A stretch of 64,000 nt of DNA from Clavelina lepadiformis (lineage: Eukaryota > Chordata > Ascidiacea > Aplousobranchia > Clavelinidae), in contig NC_135242.1 in the NCBI RefSeq assembly GCF_947623445.1, forward strand, positions 8,308,001-8,372,000, given 5' to 3'. The translations under genes were made by a program, and so were the position numbers. Shown here piece by piece: positions 14,401 to 40,438 of this stretch. A model generated the notes under the pieces. It was not told the DNA's origin, did not search any database, and worked only from the letters and a program-made list of their open reading frames with translations. Each line of letters begins with the position of its first letter. Within the stretch, counting starts at the first letter, position 1.

Positions 14401-15125
14401 TTCCATTTCTTGCTTTGATGTACAATATTTCAGTTCATTGGTTGCCTAAAAAGTTACCTTTTTGAAAAAAAACAAATGCTCTAATGCTTTTTTATCATTT
14501 TAGACCACTTATTCTCAAATCTACAATTCATTTTGCAGCCTGCAACCACTGCAAATGAAAAAATCATTTTCTCTCCCCTTGCACCATTTAGTTAGAAGTT
14601 TTAGACACAGTTTTTTTACATAATCATCTGCATAAAAGTCATCCCAAAAACTGGTAAAATACCAGACTGAAAAGCACACATTTTGCAAATTTTATATTTT
14701 GTATATTTAAGGGCATACTAAAATGCAATAATTTTGGATGACAATTGTATCCTGTGAAGTTTTGTGTATTCATGCAATGACAACCTGTAAAGTTTGTTTA
14801 GTATTAAAGTTAGCATTTAAACAGCAAAATTTGCCATGTTATTTGCTTATTGGCACATGTATGAAAAAATTTGACGTGCATGTTGACAGTTCTCAGCAGT
14901 GCTTGTGCTACACTTTTCATGGGAAATATTTATGTATTCGTAGTTTGGAAGCTATTTTCATTCAAGTTTAAATATATTACTATTATAATAACCACATGTC
15001 TACTAGCATGTGCGACCTTATTGTCTCATTATGTTTTATTCAGAAGTGGATAGGATAGAAGTTAGAACCAATCTTTGTTGCACAAGAAACTTTTTTACTG
15101 GGTAGTTTTTACTTCAGATATTAAA
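11496..15125. other. Intergenic, upstream of the JmjC gene
   Basis: No coding sequence recognised. At 13802 a CAGGGTTGCAGAGTAGG motif looks like a hAT-type left end, but no convincing right end or target duplication was found. ORFs at 14738-15053 sit just upstream of the JmjC first exon in other frames and have no features of coding sequence. Confidence 0.4.
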
Positions 15126-18100
15126 ATGTCACTTAAAATTCTTCTTTTGCAATTGTGCATAAAATTGGTAAGCTTAAGTTGTTTTTTATGTTACTATCAA
15201 ATGAGGAAATATAATATATGTAGAACTGAAGTATTGCAGAGAGTGTAGCATTTTTACAATATTGCAACTTAATCTTGTTTCCTCTGATAGATCGTTGCAA
15301 GTGTGGAGGAAATCAATGCAGAAGCCCTGCAGTCGCATCCTGGCCATTTACTTCCTTTGGGTTCCGTCGGACCATATTTTGAACTTCCTGTTTTGCATGC
15401 TTTTCCACAGCCACGAGAGTTTTTTAATAGATATGTGGTACCATCAATACCGGTTCTTATGAAAGGTGCTGTTCAAGATGCTCCTGCATTTCACAAATGG
15501 TAGTATATGTTTTATTGCGGTTAATTGTTGCACATAATTATTTTATGTGTGAACTGGTGCAAGTAGAATTTATTTAAAATAATTATGTTTTTCATAGGCT
15601 AAGCCATTTTAATTTACCAAAGTTATGAAGGCTTATTGTATTAACCTGGAAAAATGTCTTTGAGATATCTCTTCTCTGCTTTTTAAAGAAACATAAGAAA
15701 TATAACATTATGCAGTGAAAGTAAATGTTTAATTATCGGTATGTTGATTTTGGATGAAAATTCTTATGGGTCCTATTAAAATTATATAATCTTCGTTGAA
15801 ATTTTGTACTCATTAACCACTTGATTTAATATTGACAAATAAAAATACCTTTATTGCAATTTTTCATGGGCCAAATGCAATTTTGTTAAAATTTTAGGTC
15901 CGATGACTACTTCCTAGACCATGCTGGTTCAAACGAAACTGTCTTTGTGGAAAATAGGAAGAAAGAAAACAGGACAACTGGTGGATTTGAAATCCCATTT
16001 CATGATTATATCAAAAACTATCTTACCGAAGACATTTATATGGTTAATGGCGTTCCTCAATTTTTAAGGTATTGCTGTTAAGATACAGACCATTGCTACG
16101 ATGACTATTAGCAAGTAATTTCTAGTCTATGTTATAGTAAGATAGAATTTTTTCTGCGGTTGAATGCTGTGTGGTTGATGCTGCTGCACACTCCTATGCA
16201 CCAATAACTGGTATTGTTTCTTTTGACCTGAAGGGAGTGCCATTATGCCCAACATCAATTAATGTAGGAATTGCTAAGATGTTAATGGGTTTACGTTTCT
16301 TCACTTCTGTATTTGCAAACTTTGGTTGCAATATTTCATTAATTCTTATTATTTTTCATTGTTAGACCTGATATTGAATTACCCGCTCCTCTACAATGCA
16401 GTTTAGTAATGAAGTCGCTGACAGATGCAGTGAGTCTGGTTTTATTCAAAACCATTTCTATAAACATAATTTACCATTAATTGCATGACTCTCATTGAAA
16501 ATGCTCCCTGTGAAGTAACTTACTAACACAATTAATTTGGTGTGTCTAAGTGTCTGTCTTCAGCTTTTTCTTGGATTCAGGTCATGTGGTTTAGCAGTGG
16601 AGGTACAAAGTCTGTTTTACACAACGATGACCTTGACAATGTCAACTGTTTGTACAGAGGAAAAAAGCAGTTGGTTTTTATCAACACCCATGAACTAAAT
16701 AATGTATGATATACTGTATTAGTAACTAATCATGTTACTACATGTTTCCTTAGCTTTTATTGCCATTGCTTGCATAGTCAGCTGACCATGTTCTTAGTTT
16801 GTATGGATTCATATCCAAGTAACAAGTGATAATGATTATTTTAAGGATTGGATTAGAAATGTGATTGACCATCCTGGTAACTCGTATTCGGATGTTGATG
16901 TTGATGCTGTTGATTATGTGAAGTACCATTCCCTTGCTAACACCAAATATGCCGTTGTGAACATGACTGCTGGAGATTGCCTTTTTATTCCAACTAGTTG
17001 GTAGGAATGATTATACTTTAATTGAGCTGAGGTCTTGGAGAATGCTATTACATTAACACTATGAGGAAGTATCTTTTCTCTAAATGTTATCTGTGAGGAA
17101 GTTATTTGAGTTTATAAATAGGATTATAGTAGCACAACAATTGAAGCCTATAGTACTCTATATTTTGTACCACACTTCCAGTCTGCTAAGTAGCCCAGTA
17201 TTTAGAAATACGGTATGATTGTATAAAGTTAGATTTTCAAATTACTTATTTTATATAAAAATTACTTAAGAAACGTCCAAAATGTTGGTTTTATTAAGGT
17301 ATCACCAGGTGAACTCACATGGAAATAATCTTGCTGTCAACATTTGGTTTACTCATCTGCCTCGGCGTTATGTTGATTTATCAGAAGAAAAATGTGGGAA
17401 AATGCACAAAATTACCCTTGATAAATGCATTTTTGAAAAGCTGGACATTAGTGACAAAACTGAGCAATATACATTTGGAAAAAGTTAGTGTGATACTTCA
17501 TGTATCTGGGAGTCACTTGCTCCATGACAATAATGTTTTTGTTAGCAATTAGTCTTGTATGAACAAGTTCTGGTATCGACATTAATAAACGTATGTTATA
17601 ATGTTGCCCTAATTTTGTTTCATTAAAATGGACATTAACACAAGTAACTTGTTTCCGGTGTGTTTGGATCTTTAGGTAATTAATTTTACATCAAATTTTC
17701 TTATTGCTTTTCAGACACATTGAGCTTACCTAATTCTGCTGAGCTATCAATCTTGTAAGTAAAACAATTTTGTATCTATGTTTCCACCACTATTGCTTGT
17801 TATTATATAATTAATGTACGGAACGTAGGCTATGCATATGATTTACTTCAATTACACATGATATAGCACAGTACCACTTATAGTTACTCTGGAATGCACC
17901 TATAGTAGCTCCTGGAGAAGGGGTCAGAAAACTGTTACTTTAAGCAATAATGACTGGGAACTGTGTCTGCCCAGCTGTTGTCACTATAAAGCCACTCTTG
18001 CAAGTTTTGTCCGTACATAACTTGATGTTAAGGATACACTTTTGTTGGGTTCTTTATAAACACCTTTTAAACACTGTTAGTAAATTGAAGTGGAAGATTT

Positions 18101-20200
18101 CAGTTTTGAAAAATGATTTCACCGGAATTATGCAATACGTATCTTCTTTTACGATTTTTTGCCAATTTCGACATTGATAAATAATAATAATTAATTACAA
18201 TTTATTAATTGTAATTGTAATTTATTAATTATGAATATCTGATTTAGAAAAGTGATTTACCAATTTGTGAAAAGAAACATTTCCTTGAGCGTTGAAGATT
18301 TACAAAGCGGGTTGTCAAATTTAGTAAGTGGCTAAAGATAAAGAGGAAAAATTAAAAAATTTGATTATCTTAAAATCAATTGCATGTTTTGTTAGAATGT
18401 GTTGAATTGGCCAGTGAAACATAAGCATTATATGCAACCAGAAAAATGTTTCTATGTTACAGTGGCCAGCACCTATCACCACGCACAAACTTAATATTCG
18501 CTCATCTAATTACATTTCACAATCCAAAAAGAGCTTCGCACTTTGTAAAAGTGTAAATATAAATGGACAATGGTCAACTCATTGATGCTATTAATAAAAA
18601 CGATAAAGGATAACGTTTTTGATTTTATTCAGTTGTTGCTATTAAACTAACAATAATTTTAATTAAAATCTGCAGACTTAACACTTCTACTCAACTGTAC
18701 ACCACAAGAAAAAATTACTCTCATAACAAGAAAATGATAAATTTATGTGTAGGTGGTAGCTTTGGGCTACTGTTGTAAGTAGTATACATTAATAAACATG
18801 CAAATATTTTAAACCAATGCTTTTAAACCTGATAGGCAGTATGCATGGTACAGAAAAAAATTATGAAGCATTCTTTGTTATTACTTTCTTTGATAACATG
18901 GATAAATAATCTTCATATTTGTAATATTTTACATCAATATTGTTTTTTTGTTAATTAAACGAAATCTTTCATTGTCATTCAGTTTTATACATACATTTAA
19001 AATGCATCGAATGAGTGGAATTTAAAAAATGTTCTGTAATCTGGTATGTTTTATGCTAACAGTTTGGTAATAATCATAATTTTAGTTTATTTTGACCCTA
19101 TTATGCTGATATACTTAAACTGTATAGTATCATACCTATCATATCACTTGCATCTTACAGAAACCAAATTTTCAAATGTTAAAGTCATTGATTATGACCA
19201 CAACACTCCAATATGCTGAAGAAATTATGACTTTGCTGGATGTCAACAAAGATGCAGTCATTGACCGAAATGACTTTGCCATGCTGAGAGACGATATTAA
19301 GGTAGTTTAGATATATACAAAATATGTACCAGTAAACATTTAATGCTTTCCTTACAAGCTTGTGATGATCATAAATTGTTATTGTTTACTCCACATCAGG
19401 CCTCAGAGGCATTCAAACTTTTCAAGTTCATGAGTTATTTTTACACTGGCCTGTCAATATCAAAAAATGTTTCCAAAGGCTTGTGATTGACGAATTGGGT
19501 AACTTCGTTCTATGTAATTGCATGACGATGTATAAAAAACCTTTAACCTAAGACTAAGAGACATTTTTGTATTTTTTCTCTGTTTAAAACAAGTGCGCTT
19601 ATATATAGTAAATTATAGTAACTGTTTATTTGCTATAATCGCAGATACTATACTTTAAATCGACAATGGTAAGGAAGCCACACAAACGAAGCATTTTACA
19701 CGTTTAGGTGTTGTTGCCGAAAGTGTTTCCAGCTACTGTTATTAGGTTTTTAAAGTTAGTTAGTACTTCGTCTACGCAATTTCATTTTAGTAACAGTATA
19801 TGTTTTCCTTTAGCTGCTGGAAACAGTTGTTGGCGAATCAGATGCAATATTAGATGAGTACCTGGTTGCTGTGGATGAGATTGAAGAAGAAGATAGAATG
19901 GTAAAACATCTGAATATTCCGTTAAATGTATCGGCTTGCATACATCATAATTATTGTTTGTCCCAAATTTCGCTGTGTCGGTCGTATAACGCCATGCTAT
20001 TGTGTGAGGCATTATCACAGAAAAGTTTAATTTGGCATGCTCAGTGCCATTTGCTTATATAATTTACAATGTATGCACAGGAACTCACTCGAATGTTGTT
20101 TGAACGAGGTGATCTGTCCTATGATGATGTTGTAGAAGTTTATGGAAAGGAGTTTGTCCAAAGCATGAAACGTTTCACTGGATTGAAACAAGAATTGTAA
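15126..20200 (+). CDS. ER-type JmjC dioxygenase with C-terminal EF-hand
   Basis: Predicted Fe(II)/2-oxoglutarate hydroxylase of the cupin_8/JmjC class. Twelve GT-AG exons: 15126-15167, 15291-15499, 15898-16068, 16366-16429, 16581-16703, 16846-17000, 17299-17483, 17715-17754, 18248-18323, 19161-19301, 19814-19900 and 20081-20200. Phases agree throughout and give 470 residues. Exon 1 encodes MSLKILLLQLCIKL, which joins IVAS to form a signal-peptide-like start. The iron triad is present: His176 and Asp178 in HND, and His257 in WYHQV; GKK (190-191) may bind 2-oxoglutarate. An EF-hand loop, DVNKDAVIDRND, lies at 382-393, followed by an acidic, EF-like region. The protein ends in KQEL, close to KDEL. 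Together these suggest an ER-lumen enzyme acting on secretory proteins, perhaps calcium-sensitive. The substrate is unknown and I cannot name an orthologue. The short first exon is the least certain part. Confidence 0.85.
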
Positions 20201-38862: not shown

Positions 38863-39374
38863 GTATTCTCCCGAAAATTGACGTCATTGAAAAAACTTTC
38901 CCCACTGATAACACTACGTGACAAAATTCAAAAAATGTTTTGTTTGGCTACATTTATTAAGTGTATCTGTATGATTTTCAAGCACTGATTTCAAAAATGT
39001 TATCAGTTTTTTTCTATCATCGATCGTTTTCAAGATACAATGATTTCAGTTTTTTGTGATTTTCCATTAGCCTAACTGTAGGTATTTTATGCGGTTATGA
39101 TCTGTGTCTGTCAGTATTATCATGTTGTAAATGGGCGTCCTATTTACTTGAGAAAGTGAATGGGAGTTTGAAATGCAGACGAATGTGCTTTTATTTCTTA
39201 TCTCAGTTTTCATTTTATCTCAGCCTGTTAAATTCAGTATAGTCTCATTAGACAGTCATGTTTAGTGTTTACAGAGAGAAGTATACCATATGATTACATT
39301 TTGTAGAGTTAAGTCTTGTGTAAATCTTAGATTCAGTTCTTTTAAATAGTAGAAATCAAAATGTCTAGTAGACA
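38863..39374. other. Flank of the 39.4-kb transposon-like coding block
   Basis: AT-rich sequence with no feature I can name. It may contain the lost 5' part of the neighbouring protein family, but nothing aligns by eye. Confidence 0.3.
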
Positions 39375-40438
39375 GTGCAAAAATTTAAGTTAGAGTACTG
39401 TCTACCCCACAGGAATAGGCACTTGGAGTTTTCTGTCTACTTTGACGTTTTTGAAGACCTTTGCTATTGCAAAGATGTAGAAGGCCTGTTTTGTGCTGTT
39501 GGAATAGATCATGATCCTACTCAGTGGCGGCGTTTCATTGACAGTTCTACCAAAAGTCTTAAAGCAGTGTTACTTCACAATGGCAACATATACCCATCAA
39601 CTCCACTTGCTTATTCCTTACAGATGAAAGAAGATTATGAAAACGTCAAGCAACTGCTCATTAAAATCAATTACACTCAGTTTAAGTGGTATGTTTGTGG
39701 TGACTTTAAAATGTTGGGAATTTTGCTTGGTCTGCAGGGTGGTTACACAAAATACTCTTGCTTTCTGTGCTTGTGGAATAGTAGAGCTGACGGTGAGCAC
39801 TATGAGAAAATTAATGGCCGACACGGGAAAAACTAAACCCAGGAATGTACAACGTTATTAGGGAACCTCTTGTAAGCCGGGAAATAGTTTTACTGCCTCC
39901 ACTTCATATCAAATTAGGTCTGATAAAACAGTTTGTCAAAGCTTTGGATTTTCAAGGACAAGTTTTTCAAGAAATCCGTTCAATGTTTCCTAGACCATCA
40001 CTTGCCAAAATAGGAGGAATATTTGTTGGTCCTCAGATAAACACAATGTTAAAGTGTAAAAGCTTGGAAGAAAAAATGAATGAAACGGAAAAAGAAGCGT
40101 GGCAAGCATTTCGAGGTGTGGTAAATGGATTTTTGGGAAATAAAAGGGACAGAAATTACAAAGAGTTGGTGGAGAAACTGATCAAAAGTTACCAAAACAT
40201 GGGTTGTCGCATGTCTGTCAAACTTCATTTTTTATGTTCGAATCTGGATTTTTTTCAAGAAAATCTAGGTGACTTCAGTGAGGAGCACGGTGAGAGACTT
40301 CATCAGGATATTGAGCCAATAGAAAAACGATATAAAGGCCGCTGGGATAGTGTAATGATGGGAAACTACATTTGGTCTTTAGTAAGGCAAGACAGGAGTG
40401 GTCATAAAAGAAAAACTCGCTCAGAAGTACATTTTTGA
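39375..40438 (+). pseudogene. Decayed copy of a repeat-associated protein family
   Basis: About 1.06 kb encodes the C-terminal part of a protein family I recall as multicopy, unnamed hypothetical proteins in insects, spiders and other invertebrates. Signature stretches are WRRFIDSSTKSLKAVLLHNG, YTKYSCFLCLW, LPPLHIKLGLIKQFVKALD, GIFVGPQI, SVKLHFL and SEEHGERLHQDIEPIEKRY, ending near a HF terminus. The His/Asp/Glu-rich blocks and multicopy pattern suggest a transposon-encoded nuclease or transposase, but I know of no proven activity. The similarity passes through two abutting reading frames and the N-terminal part is missing, so this copy looks dead. Boundaries of any surrounding element were not found. 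Confidence 0.75.

Follow-up and report, generated by a model that had tools for sequence, protein, structure and literature searches.

What kind of protein is encoded by a JmjC gene whose product begins with a signal-peptide-like segment, carries an EF-hand-like loop and ends in KQEL? The question is raised by a gene at positions 15126-20200 (plus strand) of a 64,000-nucleotide stretch of the Clavelina lepadiformis contig NC_135242.1, hereafter called the window, whose positions serve as coordinates unless another contig or locus is named. We consider it probable that this gene encodes a soluble Fe(II)- and 2-oxoglutarate-dependent hydroxylase of the endoplasmic reticulum (ER) lumen, probably of the HRJD type known from planarians, and that it is one of at least eight paralogues. 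The gene itself is real: its 12 exons join into 1413 bases (470 codons and a stop), its 11 introns all have GT...AG borders, and its domain and metal ligands are in place. Indeed, the signal-peptide-like exon 1, the iron triad, the loop at residues 382-393 and the KQEL terminus announced by an earlier sequence-only reading were each found where it had placed them in the 12-exon translation, and the single 470-residue model with consistent phases that it had drawn closes in frame.

Searches across all 95 contigs (209 Mb) of the genome used the JmjC part of the window protein, two paralogues and the Pfam family as queries, and the family loci were aligned with their splice sites. At least seven further genes share the same plan, namely a hydrophobic start, a GHLxPLG-like motif, a Cupin_8/JmjC domain with the HxD...H residues, an EF-hand-like segment and an -EL tail. 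Complete models were obtained for four of the eight genes: the window gene and the paralogues on contigs C2 (L009, 445 amino acids, ending in KSEL), C6 (385 amino acids, KDEL) and C7 (401 amino acids, EKEL). The other four (L019 to L022) were read as unjoined parts, the partial models lying at C3:0.28 Mb, C3:8.52 Mb, C3:19.36 Mb and C8:5.56 Mb; in each of them the hydrophobic start shares an open frame with the GHLxPLG-like motif and the JmjC domain is followed downstream by an RDEL end, the best join of L019 to its tail exon being weak. The motif reads GH(L/M)xPLG in six of the eight genes and is varied in L020 (GHLQQFG) and L022 (GHLLPFG). A 17-row tree grouped the eight genes with a support of 76/89.

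The JmjC domain of the window protein is certain even when taken alone. The Cupin_8 match (E = 7.6e-34; 118.2 bits against a curated cut-off of 27.4) starts in exon 2 (15291..15499), which also holds the end of the signal segment and a GHLLPLGS motif (residues 32-39), continues through exons 3 (15898..16068) and 4 (16366..16429), passes the JmjC core in exons 5 (16581..16703) and 6 (16846..17000), and ends at residue 276 in exon 7 (17299..17483). Two of the iron ligands, His176 (16620-16622) and Asp178 (16626-16628), are encoded by exon 5 and the third, His257 (17303-17305), by exon 7; the four complete models share this HxD...H triad without change, and all eight genes keep it. The same exon 5 encodes Lys191 (16665-16667), a putative 2-oxoglutarate ligand to which we assign this role by assumed analogy with FIH and JMJD5, and which does not vary among the four complete models and was seen in the other four genes. 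The nearest PDB structures include JMJD5 (3.6e-17), JMJD7, TYW5 and FIH. No domain besides Cupin_8 was clearly found in the window protein, its EF-hand being sub-threshold in Pfam.

Both ends of the protein point to the secretory pathway. Exon 1 (15126..15167) contains the initiator ATG and the greater part of the signal-peptide-like segment (MSLKILLLQLCIKL), with candidate cuts between IVA and S or between VAS and V (by hydrophobicity and the -3/-1 rule only). This hydrophobic start scores 2.46, and a score of at least 2.2 is reached by 46 of the 330 ATG-started open reading frames of this AT-rich window. Exon 12 (20081..20200) encodes the C-terminus, with KQEL at 20186-20197 and the stop codon at 20198-20200; KQEL fits the PROSITE pattern [KRHQSA][DENQ]EL, as do the tails of six of the eight family genes, KQEL included. 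A hydrophobic start, an EF-hand and a short tail are each weak alone and become convincing through the paralogues: start and -EL tail occur together in all eight genes, and five of them end in the canonical KDEL (once) or RDEL (four times). The KDEL receptor retrieves both KDEL and RDEL (PMC8248988). When the four stretches downstream of the partly modelled JmjC domains were resampled (first-order Markov, 400 resamples each), a [KRH]DEL tail appeared in 2, 0, 0 and 2 cases. The controls were four other Cupin_8 genes of the genome (L024, L012, L027 and L014), which end without -EL (FWWT, VKND, TFLG and GGLM, respectively), the ends of L023, L025, L026, L028 and L029 lying outside this count. 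With these results the hydroxylase of the secretory pathway put forward earlier is well supported as a proposal.

Between the domain and the tail lies the EF-hand-like segment. Exon 10 (19161..19301) encodes a predicted helix-loop-helix whose loop (DVNKDAVIDRND, residues 382-393, at 19239-19274) carries Ala instead of Gly at position 6 and Asp instead of Glu at position 12. Exon 9 (18248..18323), which bridges to it, may encode the degenerate first member of an EF-hand pair. The Pfam match spans residues 342-395 and stays below the cut-off (EF-hand_7, 18.1 bits vs 30). Across the family, seven of the eight genes have a Pfam EF-hand match at some level and only L021 has one above the cut-off (EF-hand_5, 29.2 bits vs 25.9, in a 38-residue segment). 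In each of the four complete models the only strict EF loop lies C-terminal to the JmjC domain, a pattern reached by 172, 133, 86 and 79 of 5000 residue shuffles of the respective models. The last 154 residues of the window protein gave 13 weak PDB matches (E 0.098-0.95), one of which is listed as hypothetical; twelve of them carry names that we take to be those of EF-hand or EH-domain proteins. Exon 10 alone was predicted as a helix (2-28), a loop and a second helix (36-46), with a predicted local distance difference test score (pLDDT) of 88 for the best of five models and 76.5-86.3 for the others.

From sequence comparison we infer ER residence, catalysis, a substrate, a calcium effect and HRJD membership, which would combine as follows. 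The N-terminal signal segment would bring the protein into the ER, and the -EL tail would allow its retrieval from the Golgi by the KDEL receptor. The JmjC/Cupin_8 domain would bind Fe(II) through His176, Asp178 and His257 and 2-oxoglutarate through Lys191, and the most likely reaction is the hydroxylation of a side chain in a client of the secretory pathway, presumably Arg, Lys or Asn if the analogy with JMJD5, JMJD7 and FIH holds. The EF-hand segment may sense, or be stabilised by, lumenal calcium.

Several observations weigh against this proposal. In flies and S2 cells, HRJD proteins were located in the cytoplasm and not in the nucleus (PMC11295675). The signal segment of the window copy contains a lysine. 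Two of the tails, KSEL and EKEL, fall outside the PROSITE pattern. KQEL and KSEL appear nowhere in the available text of the KDEL-receptor paper (PMC8248988). As for the EF-hand, the window loop is imperfect and among the poorer loops of the family, so that calcium binding by this protein is uncertain; no EF-hand family of Pfam matched the C6 copy up to E 0.1 despite its KDEL tail and strict loop, the loops of L019 and L022 are only degenerate, and a Foldseek search with the 47-residue EF exon returned no PDB match. The calcium link suggested by the sequence-only reading is weaker than its secretory-pathway part: it is favoured by the stricter loops of other members and by L021, and disfavoured by the imperfect, sub-threshold loop of the very protein for which it was suggested. 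When the last 115 residues were used as a genome query, all three matches were to the window gene and none to a paralogue; judging from the sequences, the C-terminal part of the family is evolving fast. Finally, the eight genes were split in a 14-row tree built without L027, L023 and L029 (L026 and L028 being in neither tree), and came together in 23% of the bootstrap trees, a grouping that was not rejected (approximately unbiased test, p-AU 0.444); on these alignments they form no resolved clade.

The cytoplasmic location would suit a cytosolic or nuclear JmjC enzyme, either a histone demethylase or a cytosolic hydroxylase, in which the hydrophobic start and the -EL end are incidental, and so would the nearest structures, JMJD5 and JMJD7 not being known as ER enzymes. 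This explanation, in line with which the HRJDs have been called a potential histone demethylase (PMC11295675), is nevertheless unlikely, because an incidental start and tail would have to recur in eight paralogues, with exact KDEL or RDEL in five, and the tail is absent from the four control genes. Moreover, the 3xFLAG tag of the HRJD constructs was placed at the 5' end of the coding sequence (PMC11295675), where it could mask a signal peptide and keep HRJDs outside the ER if they have one.

A second alternative is an ER-lumen protein that has lost its enzyme activity and binds calcium as a chaperone or holdase, in the way suggested for JMJD8 in protein folding. EF-hands and -EL tails are known in ER chaperones and FKBPs. 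JMJD8 itself is a folding-linked JmjC protein of the ER lumen in which His replaces the iron-binding Asp (PMC5684140). All eight genes of the present family, however, keep the full HxD...H, and the putative 2-oxoglutarate lysine was seen in each of them, which makes a non-enzymatic role quite unlikely. A secreted extracellular enzyme, for which KQEL would be too weak a retrieval signal, is very unlikely given the KDEL or RDEL of the paralogues and the -EL end of all eight, despite the silence of the receptor paper on KQEL and KSEL.

An ER-lumen hydroxylase thus being preferred, the exon chain on which its two ends depend deserves a closer description. Exon 8 (17715..17754) is a linker and exon 11 (19814..19900) belongs to the C-terminal region. 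Joined directly, exons 8 and 10 would not keep the reading frame (phase 2 to 0), and a small exon between them, exon 9, is required for the chain to stay open. The exon at 18248-18323 was kept because it ranks first among the 42 open, phase-fitting candidates in its intron (simple splice score) and because an exon occupies the equivalent place in the C2 paralogue (L009:4443-4511), recovered with a query used without exon 9; the candidate at 18676-18748 was rejected in its favour. Intron phases agree with those of L009 at 10 of the 11 introns, or more fairly at 9 of 10, since the first exon of L009 was chosen partly for its phase (by splice site and phase among ranked candidates, of which it was not the top one). 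Intron 8 differs in phase, and the corresponding boundary of L009 is unsure. Exon 1 is needed because without it the first in-frame Met would be residue 72, within the JmjC domain, and in-frame stops lie upstream of its ATG. Many mRNAs of tunicates are trans-spliced, and a pyrimidine-rich stretch at 15104-15117, with a CAG end 8 bases 5' of the start codon, resembles a trans-splice acceptor.

The identity of the gene was also considered in relation to the other Cupin_8 genes of this genome, whose matches were followed in part (C7:207726 is among those left aside). Separate relatives are far closer to JMJD5 (1.1e-86), JMJD7 (7.8e-70) and TYW5 (2.4e-98), and the window gene was therefore rejected as any of the three. 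JMJD8 was likewise rejected: the window protein has an HND iron site and a C-terminal extension of about 190 residues, and a separate JMJD8-like gene exists (L027, C2:3743913-3744491, minus strand). The latter has an HFH iron site in one open frame that ends in STFLG; as this frame stops 16 residues past the last iron motif, it leaves no room for a C-terminal EF-hand. The names FIH (L029), HSPBAP1 (L023) and JMJD8-like (L027) are our assumptions from sequence motifs and not from a database match, supported for L027 by the published His.

Some further genes were observed on the way. At C5:10147629-10175238 (minus strand), six matches, L013 and L014 among them, are arrayed in open frames of 667-750 amino acids (G000). 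In L014 the start is hydrophobic, the JmjC/Cupin_8 domain has HHD...HHV and a beta-propeller stands at the C-terminus (Beta-prop_ACSF4 1.5e-54, PQQ_2 1.6e-31); from the two copies of the six that were read, the array is apparently a tandem amplification of a secreted-looking JmjC-propeller fusion. Pattern scans gave no relative among 26 matches in viral contigs and one among 45 matches in bacterial and archaeal contigs. This relative (L018), on the Polyangia contig JAUIFF010000007.1, is a JmjC open reading frame of 304 amino acids with 34% identity in its best segment (query residues 130-272), in which neither a signal segment nor an EF-hand was seen by eye. Elsewhere in the window, two overlapping long frames (154 and 207 amino acids) at 39372-40438 look mobile-element-like by eye.

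The architecture, which the sequence-only reading had been unable to name, turned out to be a described one: planarian HRJD proteins consist of a JmjC domain and an EF hand with no other domain (PMC11295675). According to the same paper, HRJDs were found in animals with strong regeneration, with Ciona listed among the animals that have them, and not in zebrafish, human, mouse, C. elegans or D. melanogaster, KDM8 is their closest paralogue, and their molecular function is called unknown; expression in flies impedes regeneration, and lifespan is longer when they are expressed in adult gut stem-cell lineages. In planarians, RNA interference of HRJDa/b led to higher mortality after amputation (PMC11077316). 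The terms "endoplasmic", "KDEL", "lumen", "signal sequence" and "signal peptide" are absent from the main texts of PMC11295675 and PMC11077316 (Cao et al. 2019 lying outside this scope), and "EF hand" appears in the text of the former and not of the latter. Literature queries on JmjC with EF-hand, KDEL, secretion or ER gave nothing relevant besides these two papers.

Membership of the window gene in the HRJDs is likely, on the grounds of domain make-up, JMJD5/KDM8 nearness and the published occurrence in Ciona. The apparent novelty is the ER address of this JmjC/EF-hand family, so that the earlier description of an under-described system holds for the address and not for the already known make-up. 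We tentatively extend this to a broader view, to which we give somewhat less than an even chance: HRJDs across animals would be calcium-tuned ER-lumen hydroxylases of secreted or cell-surface proteins and not chromatin enzymes, the N-terminal tag would account for their cytoplasmic location, and their absence in zebrafish, human, mouse, C. elegans and Drosophila would reflect a lost secretory-pathway modification. If true, the ER-lumen address would shift the search for HRJD substrates away from chromatin and towards secreted and membrane proteins.

Among known systems, the HRJDs are thus the closest in their JmjC and EF-hand make-up, their multiple copies and their nearness to KDM8/JMJD5, which the structure search with the window protein also returned; they differ in copy number, at least eight in this genome against "typically two or three" per species (PMC11295675). 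JMJD5/KDM8, JMJD7, TYW5 and FIH share the Cupin_8/JmjC fold and the ligands. JMJD8 resembles the window protein as an ER-lumen JmjC protein with a signal peptide and differs in its iron site, and neither "EF-hand" nor "KDEL" occurs in the available text of PMC5684140. The transmembrane prolyl 4-hydroxylase P4H-TM differs in that "JmjC" and "KDEL" occur 0 times in the available text of its description (PMC7948501), and resembles the window protein in joining an EF domain to a 2-oxoglutarate enzyme of the ER. Its EF hands bind calcium with a dissociation constant of 23 uM, its authors suggest that calcium saturation could respond to calcium release, and they state that no other characterised enzyme of the superfamily has EF hands (PMC7948501). 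If our proposal is true, the present family would represent a second, independent union of an EF-hand with an ER 2-oxoglutarate enzyme besides P4H-TM.

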